Origin: an uncultured Bacteroidales bacterium
GTDB taxonomy: Bacteria; Bacteroidota; Bacteroidia; Bacteroidales; UBA932
Assembly (NCBI GenBank): GCA_944323505.1
Contig: CALUST010000029.1
Span: 1-63,124, forward strand
Direction: 5' to 3'
Length of the DNA stretch: 63,124 nucleotides
Shown one piece after another: positions 49,465-55,081 of the stretch. Made by a program: the position numbers and the translations under genes. The stretch's first letter is position 1, and each line of letters opens with the position of its first letter. The notes beneath the pieces are model-generated. The model had not been told where the DNA came from. It made no database searches and was given only the letters and a program-made list of their open reading frames with translations.

Positions 49465-49926
49465 TCATATCAGCACCTGCATGAGAGGAATTCTGACAAA
49501 ATCCCTTTCATTCATCAAAGGATGCGGAATCTTCAGGTCTTCATCATCAATCCTCCAGTCGCCGATGAGCAGAATGTCAATATCTATGATTCTCGAACGG
49601 TAGATTCTTTTCCCGTCAATACCGTATTCCGGTCCGCCTGTACGGCCCAACGCCCTCTCGATATTCTTGCATATCCCGAGAATCCGATGAGAATATGCGG
49701 GCTCTGATGTTCCCCGTGGAACAGTGACCCGATAGCGCACCGCCGCATTGAGGAATCTGTCTGAGGACACAAAGCCCCACGGCTCTGTCTCGATAAAGTC
49801 TGACAAGGCTTCGTAATGGCATCCTAAAGCCTCATCCATCAACCTCAAAGCCTCTTCAAAATTAGCCTTTCTGTCACCGAGATTGGACCCGAGCCCAAGA
49901 TAAAGAAGCACCTTATTGTCCGGCAT
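49465..49926 (-). CDS. folK: 2-amino-4-hydroxy-6-hydroxymethyldihydropteridine pyrophosphokinase
   Basis: A 153-residue HPPK. GLGSNLGDRKANF is the N-terminal signature, ETEPWGFVSSDRFLNAAV the substrate loop, and RSRIIDIDILLIGD plus IPHPLMNERDFVRIPL the Mg-ATP site. It transfers pyrophosphate from ATP to the pterin in folate synthesis. It is 19 bases downstream of the SufT-like gene and is probably the last gene of the sufS-sufE-sufT-folK transcript. A parS-like palindrome lies inside it (49708-49723), encoding VPRGT. Confidence 0.95.
   Translation of the reverse strand: MPDNKVLLYLGLGSNLGDRKANFEEALRLMDEALGCHYEALSDFIETEPWGFVSSDRFLNAAVRYRVTVPRGTSEPAYSHRILGICKNIERALGRTGGPEYGIDGKRIYRSRIIDIDILLIGDWRIDDEDLKIPHPLMNERDFVRIPLMQVLI
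49708..49723. promoter_or_regulatory. parS-like ParB-binding palindrome, one mismatch (inside folK)
   Basis: TGTTCCCCGTGGAACA. It differs at one central base from the perfect site at 52733-52748. Confidence 0.5.
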
Positions 49927-49945
49927 GTATTGGATTCAGAAAAGG

Positions 49946-50326
49946 TTATTCATCCAGCCCGAGTTCCACAAGAGCCTCCTCGGACATCCTGCTCTTGTCC
50001 CAGGCAGGCTCGAATACAAGTTCGATTTTAGCGCTGACCACTCCCGGAACGTCTTCCACCGCAGCCTTCACAGCATCCACCACATAGTCAGCCATAGGAC
50101 AATTCGGAGCTGTAAGAGTCATCTGTATATACACATTGTGCTCTTCGTCCACTTTCAGTTCGTAGACAAGCCCGAGATCATAGATGTTGACAGGTATTTC
50201 AGGATCATACACCTGCCTCAAAGCCATTATTATATCTCTTTCCAAAGCCATAATCTTCTCCTTCCGAACCTTCTTTTCCTCTTCCGAAAGTTCTCTTTTT
50301 TTCCCGAAAATATTTTTTAACCCCAT
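49946..50326 (-). CDS. SufT/MIP18-family (DUF59) iron-sulfur assembly protein
   Basis: A 126-residue protein with the DUF59 core: VYDPEIPVNIYDLGLVYELKV and LTAPNCPMADYVVDAV. The N-terminal 30 residues are charged. DUF59 proteins help deliver Fe-S clusters to target proteins. The start at 50326 follows a strong Shine-Dalgarno (GGAGGAGG) three bases before the ATG. It lies between sufE and folK on the same strand. Confidence 0.9.
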   Translation of the reverse strand: MGLKNIFGKKRELSEEEKKVRKEKIMALERDIIMALRQVYDPEIPVNIYDLGLVYELKVDEEHNVYIQMTLTAPNCPMADYVVDAVKAAVEDVPGVVSAKIELVFEPAWDKSRMSEEALVELGLDE

Positions 50327-50347
50327 ATTCCTCCTCCGCAATACGGA

Positions 50348-50764
50348 CTACAGATTTTCCGATGCGATTTCTCTGATAGTTGCAATCATAGACACAAGTC
50401 CGTTCGCCCTTGTCGGTGAAAGATTCTCCTTGAGCCCTATCCTGTCCACCACTGAGAAGTCCGACGAAAGAATCTCTTGCGGTGTCCTGCCGGAATATAT
50501 CTTTATCAACAATGATATGATACCCTTTGTTATGATGGCATCACTGTCGGCATTGAGGAAAATCTTTCCACCGTCTATGGAACAGTCAAGCCATACCCTT
50601 GACTGACAACCTTTTATAAGTCTATCCTCTGTCTTCTTATCCTCAGGATAATCTTTAAGAGCCTTTCCGAGTTCGATGAGATACTCGTATTTGTCGAGCC
50701 ATCCGTCAAACATAGAAAACTCATCAACAACCTCATTTTCAACTTCTTGTAAAGATTTTTCCAT
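50348..50764 (-). CDS. sufE: Sulfur acceptor protein SufE
   Basis: A 138-residue SufE fold. The persulfide-accepting Cys53 is in IKGCQSRVWL, followed by DCSIDGGKIFLNADSDA and the closing TRANGLVSMIATIREIA. It takes sulfur from SufS and passes it to the Fe-S scaffold. It is 46 bases downstream of sufS and 21 bases ahead of the SufT-like gene. Confidence 0.93.
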   Translation of the reverse strand: MEKSLQEVENEVVDEFSMFDGWLDKYEYLIELGKALKDYPEDKKTEDRLIKGCQSRVWLDCSIDGGKIFLNADSDAIITKGIISLLIKIYSGRTPQEILSSDFSVVDRIGLKENLSPTRANGLVSMIATIREIASENL

Positions 50765-50810
50765 ATCAGTATATTATTGTTGACTTTTTATCGCCGCCAT
50801 ATCATATTTC

Positions 50811-52037
50811 TTAGCCGAGCATAGAAATGGCTTTATGCAGGCATTCCATGAAATACACGGCCTCTTCCATGGTATTATAAGGTGCCAACGACACCCTGAG
50901 CATACCGGTCACGCCGAACCTGTCCATCAGCGGCTCCGCACACATCTGTCCTGACCTTACAGCCACGCCCATCTTATCCAATATCAAGGCCAGATCCTCA
51001 TGATGCACACCATCAACGCTGAACGAGAACAACGGTATCTTCTCATCCCTGTCATCAGGAACTCCGTACAGCCTTATCCGAGCCTCAGACATTATGGAGT
51101 CCAGCAGAAAATCCCTGACAGAGCAGGAATATCTGTCAAGTTCCCTGTCATCTGATATCTGACTGGCAAGTTCAAGAGCAGGTCTGATGGTGGCAGCCCC
51201 GGCGAAATTCTGGGTTCCGGCCTCGAATTTCAATGGGACAGGAGCATAGGTCGTCCCGCTGAACCGGACTGTCCCGACCATCTCTCCTCCACCCATATAC
51301 GGAGGCATCTTCTCAAGATACTGTCTCTTTCCGTAAAGCACTCCTGTTCCCGGGGCTGCATATATCTTATGTCCCGAAAAAACATAGAAATCACAATCAA
51401 CATCCTGGACGTCCACTTTCGTATGTACAATGCCCTGCGCCCCGTCGATGAGTACCGGCACATTCCTGAGATGACTGATTCTTACTATATCCTTTACAGG
51501 ATTGACCAATCCGAGGACATTTGATATATGTGTCACACAGACTATCCTGGTCTTATCCGTGATGAGGCTGTCAAGTAATCCTGTCTTAAGATGTCCTGTG
51601 TCATCTGTCGGGAGCACCTTCAGTACCGCATTTTTCCTCTGGCACATCATCTGCCAAGGCACTATATCGGAATGATGCTCGCACTCCGAGACAATCACCT
51701 CATCGCCCTCCGACACAAATGCCTCACCGAAAGAAAAGGCTACGAGATTGACAGATGCGGTAGTTCCAGAAGTGAACACTATATTGCTCCTGTCAGGGGC
51801 ATTGATGAACATCCTTACAGACTCTCTCGCTGCTTCATACGCCTCTGTCGCCTCTTCTGACAAAAGATGCACAGCCCTATGGATATTTGCGTTGCTTTCG
51901 ACAGAAATCCTTGTCCACTCATCAATCACAGACTGAGGACGCTGAGCCGTGGCAGCATTGTCAAAATATACGAGAGGCTTTCCGTACACCTTGCGTCCCA
52001 GTGCCGGGAAAAGACTTCTGAGTTCTTTTACATCCAT
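50811..52037 (-). CDS. sufS: Cysteine desulfurase SufS
   Basis: A 408-residue PLP enzyme. The PLP lysine is Lys224 in FSGHKIYAAPGTG. The mobile catalytic Cys366 is in RSGQMCAEPLM, where Gln-Met replace the usual His-His. YFDNAATAQRP and ECEHHSDIVPWQ are family signatures. It removes sulfur from cysteine for Fe-S cluster assembly, with SufE as acceptor. SufB, SufC and SufD are not in the window, so the scaffold genes are elsewhere. It is the first gene of its transcript. Confidence 0.94.
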   Translation of the reverse strand: MDVKELRSLFPALGRKVYGKPLVYFDNAATAQRPQSVIDEWTRISVESNANIHRAVHLLSEEATEAYEAARESVRMFINAPDRSNIVFTSGTTASVNLVAFSFGEAFVSEGDEVIVSECEHHSDIVPWQMMCQRKNAVLKVLPTDDTGHLKTGLLDSLITDKTRIVCVTHISNVLGLVNPVKDIVRISHLRNVPVLIDGAQGIVHTKVDVQDVDCDFYVFSGHKIYAAPGTGVLYGKRQYLEKMPPYMGGGEMVGTVRFSGTTYAPVPLKFEAGTQNFAGAATIRPALELASQISDDRELDRYSCSVRDFLLDSIMSEARIRLYGVPDDRDEKIPLFSFSVDGVHHEDLALILDKMGVAVRSGQMCAEPLMDRFGVTGMLRVSLAPYNTMEEAVYFMECLHKAISMLG

Positions 52038-52056
52038 AATCCGCTCTTTAGGCCGG

Positions 52057-52064
52057 CAAAGTTA
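52057..52064 (-). promoter_or_regulatory. -7 box of sufS
   Basis: Minus strand TAACTTTG, 20 bases before the sufS ATG. It faces the ruvA promoter across about 45 bases. Confidence 0.5.
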
Positions 52065-52107
52065 ACAAAAACAACAATCAATTGGCATCAGCATAAACGA
52101 TTTTTAA

Positions 52108-52115
52108 TATTTTTG
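52108..52115 (+). promoter_or_regulatory. -7 box of ruvA
   Basis: TATTTTTG, 27 bases before the ruvA ATG at 52142; a TTG lies 23 bases upstream, slightly too far for the usual spacing. Confidence 0.4.
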
Positions 52116-52141
52116 CACTCATACTCAAATTAACCGACAGA

Positions 52142-52732
52142 ATGATTGAATACATAAAAGGCCAACTGACAGAACTGAGTCCGACCGATGCAATCGTCGA
52201 ATGCAACGGCATCGGATATCACATCCTTATCTCGCTTCAGACATTCAGCCAACTGGAAAACAAGACTGATGTCACTGTCTTCATTCACCATTATCTGCGC
52301 GAAGATGAGGAATTGTACTACGGTTTCGCCTCAAAAGATGAGAGGGAACTGTTCAGGCTCCTCATAGGGGTTTCCGGGATTGGAGCGGCTACAGCAAGGA
52401 TGATGCTCTCATCTCTCTCTTCAGATGAAATCAGAAATGCAATAATCGCCGAAGACATCAACAGGATAAAAAGCATAAAGGGAATCGGGCTGAAAAGTGC
52501 CCAAAGACTCATCCTGGAACTTAAAGACAAGATCGAAAAAGGTGGAGGAGGCGCAGATATAAGCGCAATATTCGCAAGCAAGGATAATGCTGTTGTCGAA
52601 GAGGCTGTGACTGCACTCGTCCTTCTCGGATTCACCAAAGCCAACGTGACAAAAGCAGTCGCTGCAGTTGTGAAAGAGAATCCTGATGCCGGACTGGAAT
52701 CAATCATCAAATTCTCATTGAAAAGACTCTAA
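52142..52732 (+). CDS. ruvA: Holliday junction DNA helicase subunit RuvA
   Basis: A 196-residue protein: domain I OB-fold (MIEYIKGQLTELSPTDAIVE; YHILISLQTF), the two HhH motifs (LIGVSGIGAATARMML and IKSIKGIGLKSAQRLILELK) and the C-terminal domain III (EEAVTALVLLGFTKANVTKAV), which binds RuvB. It recognises four-way junctions during recombination repair. A perfect parS-like palindrome begins at the base after its stop codon. A small membrane protein gene follows 33 bases on. Confidence 0.95.
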   Translation: MIEYIKGQLTELSPTDAIVECNGIGYHILISLQTFSQLENKTDVTVFIHHYLREDEELYYGFASKDERELFRLLIGVSGIGAATARMMLSSLSSDEIRNAIIAEDINRIKSIKGIGLKSAQRLILELKDKIEKGGGGADISAIFASKDNAVVEEAVTALVLLGFTKANVTKAVAAVVKENPDAGLESIIKFSLKRL

Positions 52733-52748
52733 TGTTCCACGTGGAACA
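52733..52748. promoter_or_regulatory. parS-like ParB-binding site, perfect 16-bp palindrome
   Basis: TGTTCCACGTGGAACA, starting directly after the ruvA stop. It matches the bacterial parS form known from Pseudomonas (TGTTCCACGTGGAAC). It is a perfect palindrome without a following T-run, so it is unlikely to be just a terminator. Confidence 0.72.
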
Positions 52749-52765
52749 AAAATCAGAATAGAATC

Positions 52766-52978
52766 ATGGAAACCGAACAGAAAAAGAAAATCAACTGGAA
52801 AGAGATTGCAACATTGATTTGCACTGTCATTATCCTTGTATGTTCCATCGCCTTCCTTTGGAAACATTATTCAGGCGAGGCCGAAATGACCACATTCACT
52901 GAAATCCTGTGGTGGTTGCTGCTGGTATACTCCGTTTACAGAATCATTGTACAGATAGTATCACGCTGCAGAAAATAA
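52766..52978 (+). CDS. Small two-helix membrane protein
   Basis: A 70-residue protein of unknown function. Two TM segments are visible (residues about 14-32, IATLICTVIILVCSIAFLW, and 46-64, ILWWLLLVYSVYRIIVQIV). A charged N-terminus (METEQKKKINWKE) and an Arg/Lys C-terminus (SRCRK) suggest both ends are cytoplasmic. It lies 33 bases after ruvA, downstream of the parS-like site, and four bases from the convergent mnmG. The start is the first ATG. Confidence 0.65.
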   Translation: METEQKKKINWKEIATLICTVIILVCSIAFLWKHYSGEAEMTTFTEILWWLLLVYSVYRIIVQIVSRCRK

Positions 52979-52981
52979 CAA

Positions 52982-55081
52982 TCATCTGCCGAAATACACA
53001 AGCAGGACAGAAATGTCAGCAGGTGATACTCCTGAAATACGGGAAGCCTGTGCTATCGTCCGAGGAGAATATCTTTTGAGTTTCTGACGGCACTCTATTG
53101 ACAGACTCTCTACCCTGTCAAAGTCGAAATCCTCAGGAATCTGAAGGTTCTCCAACTTCATTATCTTGTCGGCGATTCTCTTCTCCCTTTCAATATATCC
53201 CTTGTATTTGACGGCAATCTCGCAAGATTCAATGACCTTATTCCTGTAATCATCAGCCAGGACAGCATCCATGTCAACATCCCTGACAAGAGAGACAGGA
53301 TAATCAACATTGGATGAAAGAATCTTGAGGGCATCATGATAAGATGTAGACTTGACAGAACTGCAGACAATCTCATCAAGACGTTCCGGCTCTGACAACG
53401 CTTGATAGTATCCCCCCTTTTCCCTGAAGACGTCTTCTGCCGGAGAAGAGAAGGCAGAGTCAAGATTTATTCCGGACTTATCAAAAGTTCCACGTGGAAC
53501 AATATTTATTAGAGACAAGAGACTGACTTGCGGCCGGACAATCAAATCTGAAATCCGCTTCTTTGAATCTGTCGTTGCAGAACCTACAGAAGAGAGATAT
53601 GAATTGACTGTATCCGGTTTCAAAGAAACAGAGTCAAAGAAATCATCCAGTCGAGAGACAGTGTCATACTTTCTCATAGTAAGGTCATATCTTAACTTGT
53701 CAGCAAGACCTATTGAATATGACAGCGGAGTCAGACGGATGTCAGCATCATCCTGTCTGAGAAGAATACGGTACTCTGCCCGAGAAGTGAACATCCTGTA
53801 TGGCTCATCAACTCCTTTGGTGATGAGGTCATCAATAAGGACTCCAATATAAGCCTGGTCACGCTTCAAGATGAAAGGATCCTTGTCATGAACTTTCAGA
53901 TGCGCATTGATACCTGCAACAAGGCCCTGTGCAGCCGCCTCCTCGTATCCTGTCGTGCCGTTGATCTGTCCGGCAAAGAAAAGATTCTCTATAGACTTGA
54001 GTTCAAGAGTAGGCTTGAGTTGCGTCGGATCGAAATAGTCATACTCGACAGCATAGGCCGGGCGGTATATCTTGGCATTCTCCAGCCCCTTTATATGATG
54101 CAAAGCCTCTAACTGCACTTCAAGAGGCAAAGACGATGAGAAACCTTGAAGATAGTACTCATTAGTATTCCTTCCTTCCGGCTCAAGAAACAGCTGATGT
54201 GAATCCTTGTCAGCAAAAGTCCTTAACTTGTCCTCTATGCTTGGACAATATCTGGGACCTATCCCTGTGATCATACCTGAAAACAACGGGGAATCCTTGA
54301 ATCCTGTCCTGAGGATATCATGTACCTCTGGATTGGTATGGACAACAAAACACGGCATCTGAGGAGTGCCGTTCTGGGCAGTGGAAAGAAACGGAAGATA
54401 AGAGAACTTGTCAGGATGCCCGTCGCCGGTCTGCACGGGAAGTGATGTTGTATCGACTGATGAAATATCTATTCTTGGCGGAGTACCTGTCTTCATTCTT
54501 GCTGTCCTGATACCCATCTCGACAAGCCGGGATGTAAGACCGTGTGAAGACAACTCCCCTATCCTTCCTCCCTCGAAAGAGTTTCTTCCTATGAAAAGAC
54601 GACCGTCAAGAAAGGTTCCGGCAGTCAGGATAAGTGTCTGAGAATTGAATATTGCTCCGGTAGTCGTACGACAGCCCGCAATACGCGAACCAGAGAAGAC
54701 AAAATCAATCGCTGTATCTTGGTAAATATCTATGTTACAAGTATTTTCAAGGATTTTTCTCCAATTCAGGCTGAAATGCAATTTATCACATTGTGCACGG
54801 GGACTCCACATTGCAGGGCCTTTGGACCTGTTGAGCATCCTGAACTGGAGAGTCGAAGCATCAGTCACAATACCCATATATCCCCCGAGTGCATCAATCT
54901 CGCGGACTATCTGGCCTTTCGCAATCCCTCCGACAGCCGGGTTGCATGACATCTGCGCAAACCTGCTCATGTCCATCGTTATGAAAAGGACAGACGACCC
55001 GAGCCGAGCCGCCGCCATCGCCGCCTCACATCCGGCATGGCCGCCACCCACAACTATGACATCATAGACTTTCTTTTCCAT
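52982..55081 (-). CDS. mnmG: tRNA uridine-5-carboxymethylaminomethyl modification enzyme MnmG, with an insertion
   Basis: A 699-residue FAD enzyme; members are usually about 620-630. The FAD site is [19 protein letters not shown], with [20 protein letters not shown] and [14 protein letters not shown] further on. The C-terminal [25 protein letters not shown] and [21 protein letters not shown] and [28 protein letters not shown] segments are normal. Between LLSLI and AVKYKGYI, about 100 residues stand where about 35 are usual (about residues 525-625), and the parS-like palindrome encodes their first residues (VPRGT). With MnmE it modifies wobble U34. Its ATG overlaps the ybeY stop by one base. 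Confidence 0.94.
53486..53501. promoter_or_regulatory. parS-like palindrome inside mnmG
   Basis: AGTTCCACGTGGAACA: a perfect 14-bp core (GTTCCACGTGGAAC, 53487-53500) identical to the site after ruvA. The coding strand encodes VPRGT at the start of the MnmG insertion. Confidence 0.68.

Follow-up and report, generated by a model that had tools for sequence, protein, structure and literature searches.

Can a bacterial chromosome carry its centromere within and between ordinary housekeeping genes? The question is raised by contig CALUST010000029.1 of an uncultured Bacteroidales bacterium, a stretch of 63,124 nucleotides that we call the window, in which three parS-like palindromes lie within 3.8 kb around the genes folK, ruvA and mnmG. 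In chromosomal ParABS systems, parS is where ParB is loaded as clamps, which then slide and gather into a complex that is pulled by ParA, with the result that the origin region segregates first. A sequence-only reading of this stretch had listed the three palindromes, and a search of the window returned all of them at the positions and with the mismatch states given there. Site 2 (52733..52748) is a perfect 16-bp palindrome, TGTTCCACGTGGAACA, with its 14-mer at 52734-52747, and is situated directly 3′ of the ruvA stop codon, between ruvA and mnmG. Site 1 (53487..53500) is a perfect 14-bp core inside mnmG, where codons 528-532 encode V-P-R-G-T. Site 3 (49708..49723) is a one-mismatch palindrome, TGTTCCCCGTGGAACA, in folK, and its minus-strand reading is also V-P-R-G-T. 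None of the three sites is assigned to a strand. As set out below, these three palindromes very probably constitute the chromosomal parS cluster, i.e., the centromere, of this bacterium, the binding of ParB being predicted from the sequence.

Rarity, clustering and conserved place of the sites

The 16-mer TGTTCCACGTGGAACA is identical to parS2/parS3 of Pseudomonas aeruginosa and to the parS of P. putida, as described for the chromosomal parABS systems of these two species (PMC4368675, PMC7022226), and the window matches this consensus with two exact cores and one single mismatch. All three copies of GTTCCACGTGGAAC (two exact, one with a single mismatch) fall within the 3.8 kb, and the two exact copies of the core are only 753 bp apart. 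With up to two mismatches allowed, the window contains three matches, versus a mean of 0.20 in 100 dinucleotide shuffles, none of which reached three. A first-order Markov estimate derived from the window predicts 0.005 exact copies in 1.93 Mb, versus the two observed.

The source genome is a draft of 1.93 Mb in 49 contigs, 90% complete, in which the window is contig C29. Throughout this draft, no site with one mismatch or fewer occurs apart from the three in the 3.8-kb stretch; four two-mismatch sites were found elsewhere, on three other contigs and distant from one another. A reversed control pattern gave two matches in the same genome at up to one mismatch, and 12 at up to two mismatches versus seven for the parS pattern, while in relatives the control at up to two mismatches was sometimes above and sometimes below the parS pattern. 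Because the control scores similarly at two mismatches, loose-match counts were regarded as background and dropped as evidence, and since the raw number of loose matches is uninformative, the argument rests on exactness, clustering and conserved place. At up to one mismatch, the 37 genomes of the genus together hold 67 sites, versus 20 for the reversed control.

The place of the sites was followed in two samples of relatives. The order sample for the site search comprised 61 genomes including the source (37 belonging to the genus, 24 to the rest of the order), and a site with at most one mismatch was present in 45 of them (33/37 and 12/24, respectively). mnmG was located in 10 of the 12 site-bearing genomes outside the genus, and nine of these 10 have a site no more than 20 bp from the mnmG 3′ end; the tenth, G047, has sites 22 bp before the mnmG start and 195 bp past its end. 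In the family sample, mnmG was matched in 62 of 79 genomes, of which 55 were kept, three of them of the source genus (G000, G062 and G165 were left out as already examined, and G120, G196, G219 and G225 for fragmented matches). In 50 of these 55 genomes, a site with one mismatch at most is found no farther than 5 kb from mnmG, and this range takes in 97 of all 105 such sites; the site is inside mnmG in 35/55 and at most 150 bp 3′ of it in 34/55. The copies are thus few and clustered rather than scattered, in the source genome as in the 55 family genomes, and a similar density all over the chromosome, the outcome that the sequence-only reading had named as speaking against a centromere, is not what is found. 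In the order sample, one relative outside the genus (G192) has the form GTTTCACGTGAAAC beside mnmG instead of a site with at most one mismatch. In addition, five of five Flavobacteriaceae loci (L240-L244) have two to five parS copies per locus, each with at most one mismatch, flanking mnmG on both sides, suggesting that the link between parS and mnmG may be phylum-wide.

ParB, the replication origin and the case for a centromere

The source genome encodes one ParB above the family cut-off (TIGR00180, E 1.5e-52), on contig C13, where the preceding open reading frame is ParA-like by its Walker motif. The earlier observation that parA and parB are absent from the window is therefore correct, the pair being on another contig. 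Within the order, a ParB match was found in 149 of the 151 genomes sampled. The source ParB can be aligned to Bacillus subtilis Spo0J along most of the protein, as far as the helix-turn-helix region, and residues R173 and G201, which are described as marking specificity for parS over the Noc site (PMC7383237), both have equivalents in it, according to a hand-read alignment using the numbering of that paper. The genome that carries the sites thus also encodes a cognate ParB with parS-type DNA-binding residues. This ParB, whose gene, like that of ParA, is outside the window, would load as a clamp at the three sites and then spread, after which the ParA ATPase would move the freshly copied origin regions apart; in this lineage, parS would be largely intragenic and tolerated as a V-P-R-G-T stretch.

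Proximity to the replication origin was examined via GC skew in five single-contig members of the order (G158, G177, G192, G122 and G165), using 20 stretches of 20 kb each. In G158, G192 and G122, the skew changes from negative to positive within the interval containing parS and mnmG, and finer tiles in G158 place the sign change about 12 kb from parS. In G165, the cumulative skew minimum is at the start of the record, where parS sits. Overall, the sampled skew minimum is at or near parS in 5/5 single-contig genomes, and it is in these relatives that the sites are seen near the origin. The window itself has negative skew in 14 of 15 four-kb tiles over 1-60000, which fits a putative origin to its right. 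The position of dnaA, which had been proposed as a check on the origin, proved misleading, as 1.0-2.3 Mb of the circle separate dnaA from parS in all five relatives, and in G192 dnaA is near the sampled skew maximum. The distance from parB to parS in the same relatives ranges from 0.055 to 1.66 Mb. DnaA boxes (TTATCCACA) were counted in the window and near parS in two relatives, with no clear origin signature, and the exact oriC is therefore not named.

Several observations weigh against a parS cluster at the origin. The ParB contact positions 172 and 204, which are reported as conserved, are both Lys in the source ParB by hand reading. No SMC above the cut-off was detected in six genomes including the source (90% complete), although weak partial matches occur in all six, and ScpA was detected in 0/6; with neither Smc nor ScpA partners found, the system is not placed among the ParABS systems coupled to SMC-ScpAB, in accord with a statement on two Bacteroidetes in the part of PMC10197239 consulted. 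Five of the 55 family genomes (G228, G243, G220, G221 and G202) have no site with at most one mismatch near mnmG, and 12 of the 24 order-level relatives have none anywhere in the genome. As for the origin, the link proposed by the sequence-only reading stands in the five single-contig relatives by sampled skew, but only roughly in G177, where fine tiles place the switch 55-85 kb from parS, and noisily in G165, whose curve turns from negative to positive a second time, locally, at ~1.6-1.7 Mb, near dnaA. Finally, the source genome is split into 49 contigs, and its own origin is not seen, the window showing no lasting skew switch. The proposal of a centromere-like segregation region nevertheless draws support from the unique cluster, the match to published parS, the ParA/ParB pair and the conserved place at mnmG.

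It could be argued instead that the palindromes are operators through which a transcription regulator controls local genes (ruvA, mnmG, suf, folK). Operators are typically palindromic, and the one intergenic site does precede, by 18 bp, the start of a 70-aa open reading frame. However, site 2 lies between the convergent genes ruvA and mnmG, sites 1 and 3 are deep in coding sequence, and the 70-aa frame is unmatched in the relatives' loci in which the site persists. The identity of the motif with published parS, the parS-type residues of the genome's own ParB and the fact that the place of the site follows the skew minimum in relatives further favor a centromere, and we consider the operator explanation very improbable.

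Codon-level constraint and the single reading frame

Within mnmG, the 14 letters of site 1 span the V-P-R-G-T codons 528-532 except for the last base of the Thr codon. The first codon set consisted of 21 genomes (20 of the genus plus G165), 19 of which were previously known to carry a site with at most one mismatch somewhere. Here, V is GTT in 21/21, P is CCA in 21/21, G is GGA in 19/19 and R is CGT in 16/17, the sole synonymous change at the site being one R codon, CGG, in G165; the amino acid itself departs from R to H in four genomes and from G to R in two. Three of the five site codons therefore exhibit zero synonymous variation, as opposed to 0 of 224 other conserved degenerate mnmG columns, over which the median heterogeneity is 0.73.

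Loci for a second set were selected on the similarity of their MnmG and not on parS. From 37 loci, 29 were kept (a few of them partial) and the window was added, giving 30; the loci dropped were L240-L245 (not Bacteroidales), L246 (truncated) and L248 (a marginal match). The 29 loci are from Bacteroidales or Bacteroidia metagenome-assembled genomes, many of them from herbivore guts, with MnmG sequences 65-78% identical to that of the window; Candidatus Cryptobacteroides merdavium is at 78%. A site with at most one mismatch occupies the same mnmG column in 30/30. V, P, R and G, i.e., four of the five site codons, exhibit zero synonymous variation, compared with 5 of 303 other columns, and the amino acid departures are P to L in two and R to H in two. 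The two sets partly overlap (L216 with G024, L237 with G032), and the counts ignore shared ancestry, which is, however, shared by the comparison columns of the same genes. The mnmG-internal site is conserved as DNA letters, not as amino acids, and is a clear case of a putative centromere constraining codons.

These data bear directly on another explanation, according to which the copies in mnmG, sufS (the gene with the third site in many relatives) and folK are V-P-R-G-T protein motifs kept for protein function, with the DNA match as a by-product. In its favor, a single frame is used: in the 55 family genomes, offsets place 38 of 39 mnmG-internal sites in the V-P-R-G-T frame, and the sufS and folK sites share it. 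The Pro and Arg codons in sufS also vary synonymously. However, the changes within the 14 letters in mnmG are mostly non-synonymous (CGT to CAT, GGA to AGA, CCA to CTA), which is the opposite of what protein-level selection produces; the same letters also stand between ruvA and mnmG, outside both genes, and the peptide is absent from 8/8 order-level MnmG relatives in the alignment. V-P-R-G-T as a protein motif is thus rejected by the mnmG codon test, and this explanation ranks even below the operators in probability. Least probable of all is that a plasmid or integrated element equipped with a par system of its own left these sites behind, since, although plasmid partition sites are also palindromic clusters, the neighborhood consists of housekeeping genes in an order largely conserved in the relatives examined, and the mnmG site is at a fixed codon.

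Most of the mnmG-internal sites of the family represent one homologous position. A second mnmG-internal parS near codon 240 was observed in one other genus (G242:C63:4799, G257:C118:2268 and G206:C174:7623), where it sits in the gap between two profile matches, i.e., in a small insertion. The single out-of-frame mnmG-internal site, in G251, is at a place similar to this codon-240 site.

The third site is more variable in its host gene. In the named set of loci, it is in sufS in 20 of the 27 genes examined, and the window and three loci have it in folK; no locus has it in both genes, and all of these sites are in the V-P-R-G-T frame. Across the sufS sites of this set, the codons for V, G and T are invariant, and the synonymous variation of the Pro and Arg codons makes protein-level selection harder to exclude in sufS than in mnmG. 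Every one of these 20 sites (L213-L225, L229, L231, L234, L236-L238 and L247) departs from the motif at exactly one central position, either 6 (17 sites) or 9 (three sites), and with differing bases; none is perfect and none departs at both positions. The folK sites, too, carry a single mismatch, which is at position 9 when read in the orientation of the gene; the folK codon columns are split by gaps. The pattern has exceptions: among the eight sufS sites of the first set, those of G017 and G033 are perfect, and that of G016 differs at another position. This third site, which is usually imperfect, probably acts as a weaker site for ParB, although this is a guess, and one way to explain the single mismatch in sufS is selection for a weak site.

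Taken together, these observations allow a broader and more tentative proposal, which we regard as possible but somewhat short of an even chance, namely that the family centromere has been built into housekeeping proteins and has reshaped them. Variable stretches of MnmG (in at least two places), SufS and FolK would each have acquired parS copies, in repeated events and nearly always in the V-P-R-G-T frame; extra MnmG segments would have grown alongside; and the usually imperfect third site, with its one central mismatch, would serve as a graded ParB loader, all without SMC-ScpAB.

Known systems and the host proteins

We note similarities to and differences from several characterized systems. 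In P. aeruginosa, four parS sites cluster near oriC, and nine of 10 predicted PAO1 sites are in coding sequences (PMC4368675, PMC7022226). Compared with Pseudomonas, the sites here are at ruvA/mnmG and folK (sufS in relatives), the 63 kb contig lacks parAB, and in the five relatives dnaA is far away from parS. In Myxococcus xanthus, the 14-mer is the core of the ParB-bound consensus; however, 22 sites near parA are described there (PMC3899335), whereas here three sites are on a contig without parAB. Closer in phylogeny, a Hi-C study of 12 gut genomes, including two Bacteroidetes, reported that parS clusters at ori, with ori defined in part by the parS cluster itself and not systematically coincident with dnaA (PMC10197239). 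The two Bacteroidetes, Bacteroides caecimuris and Muribaculum intestinale, belong to the same phylum as the present bacterium and have parS clustered at ori and no known condensin in either; the parts of that account consulted make no mention of mnmG, of codon-embedded sites or of constraint at the DNA level (PMC10197239).

ParABS, the exact site, intragenic parS and origin-proximal parS clusters in this phylum are therefore already known. Among the matches listed for literature on parS or ParB with mnmG, with Bacteroidota or Bacteroidetes, or with the Bacteroides origin, titles and the beginnings of abstracts revealed no mnmG-embedded parS. Within that literature, so far as those titles and abstract openings convey it, the anchoring at mnmG, the DNA constraint visible in the codons, the preference for one frame and a third site that is usually imperfect appear to be new, and the novelty is modest. 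If the centromere reading is true, mnmG together with GTTCCACGTGGAAC would provide a simple marker of the origin region in Bacteroidales drafts and metagenome contigs, where dnaA misleads, and the locus would offer a clean natural case of a DNA-binding site dictating the codons of an enzyme. It would also point to bacteria in which ParB seems to work without a recognized SMC-ScpAB, for which the handling of the chromosome arms is still a question (PMC10197239).

The genes of the window were named by NCBIfam matches, and the neighborhood of the sites consists of the housekeeping genes glyS, folK, sufT, sufE, sufS, ruvA, mnmG, ybeY, tonB and hflX. ruvA (52142..52732, plus strand; TIGR00084, E 7.6e-59) ends directly before site 2, and folK (49465..49926, minus strand; TIGR01498, E 1.7e-25) hosts site 3. 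The small 70-aa frame between ruvA and mnmG is at 52767-52979 on the plus strand, and, used as a query, it gave no match in the relatives' loci compared.

mnmG (gidA; 52982..55081, minus strand; TIGR00136, E 1e-238), the host of site 1, encodes 699 aa. Directly after the parS-coded V-P-R-G-T, its product has an in-frame insertion of ~80 residues (53249-53486, minus strand). By alignment, this insertion is present in the window and in some family relatives, whereas other relatives have the site without the insertion, and it is present in neither of two solved MnmG sequences. Both the V-P-R-G-T place and the insertion map to a segment of those two proteins that stays unaligned, is 9-17 residues long in them and separates the C-terminal domain from the main part. 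sufS (50811..52037, minus strand; TIGR01979, E 1.3e-145) carries no site in the window, where its loop reads GVPDDR; in the one SufS alignment considered, the loop is shorter by two residues.

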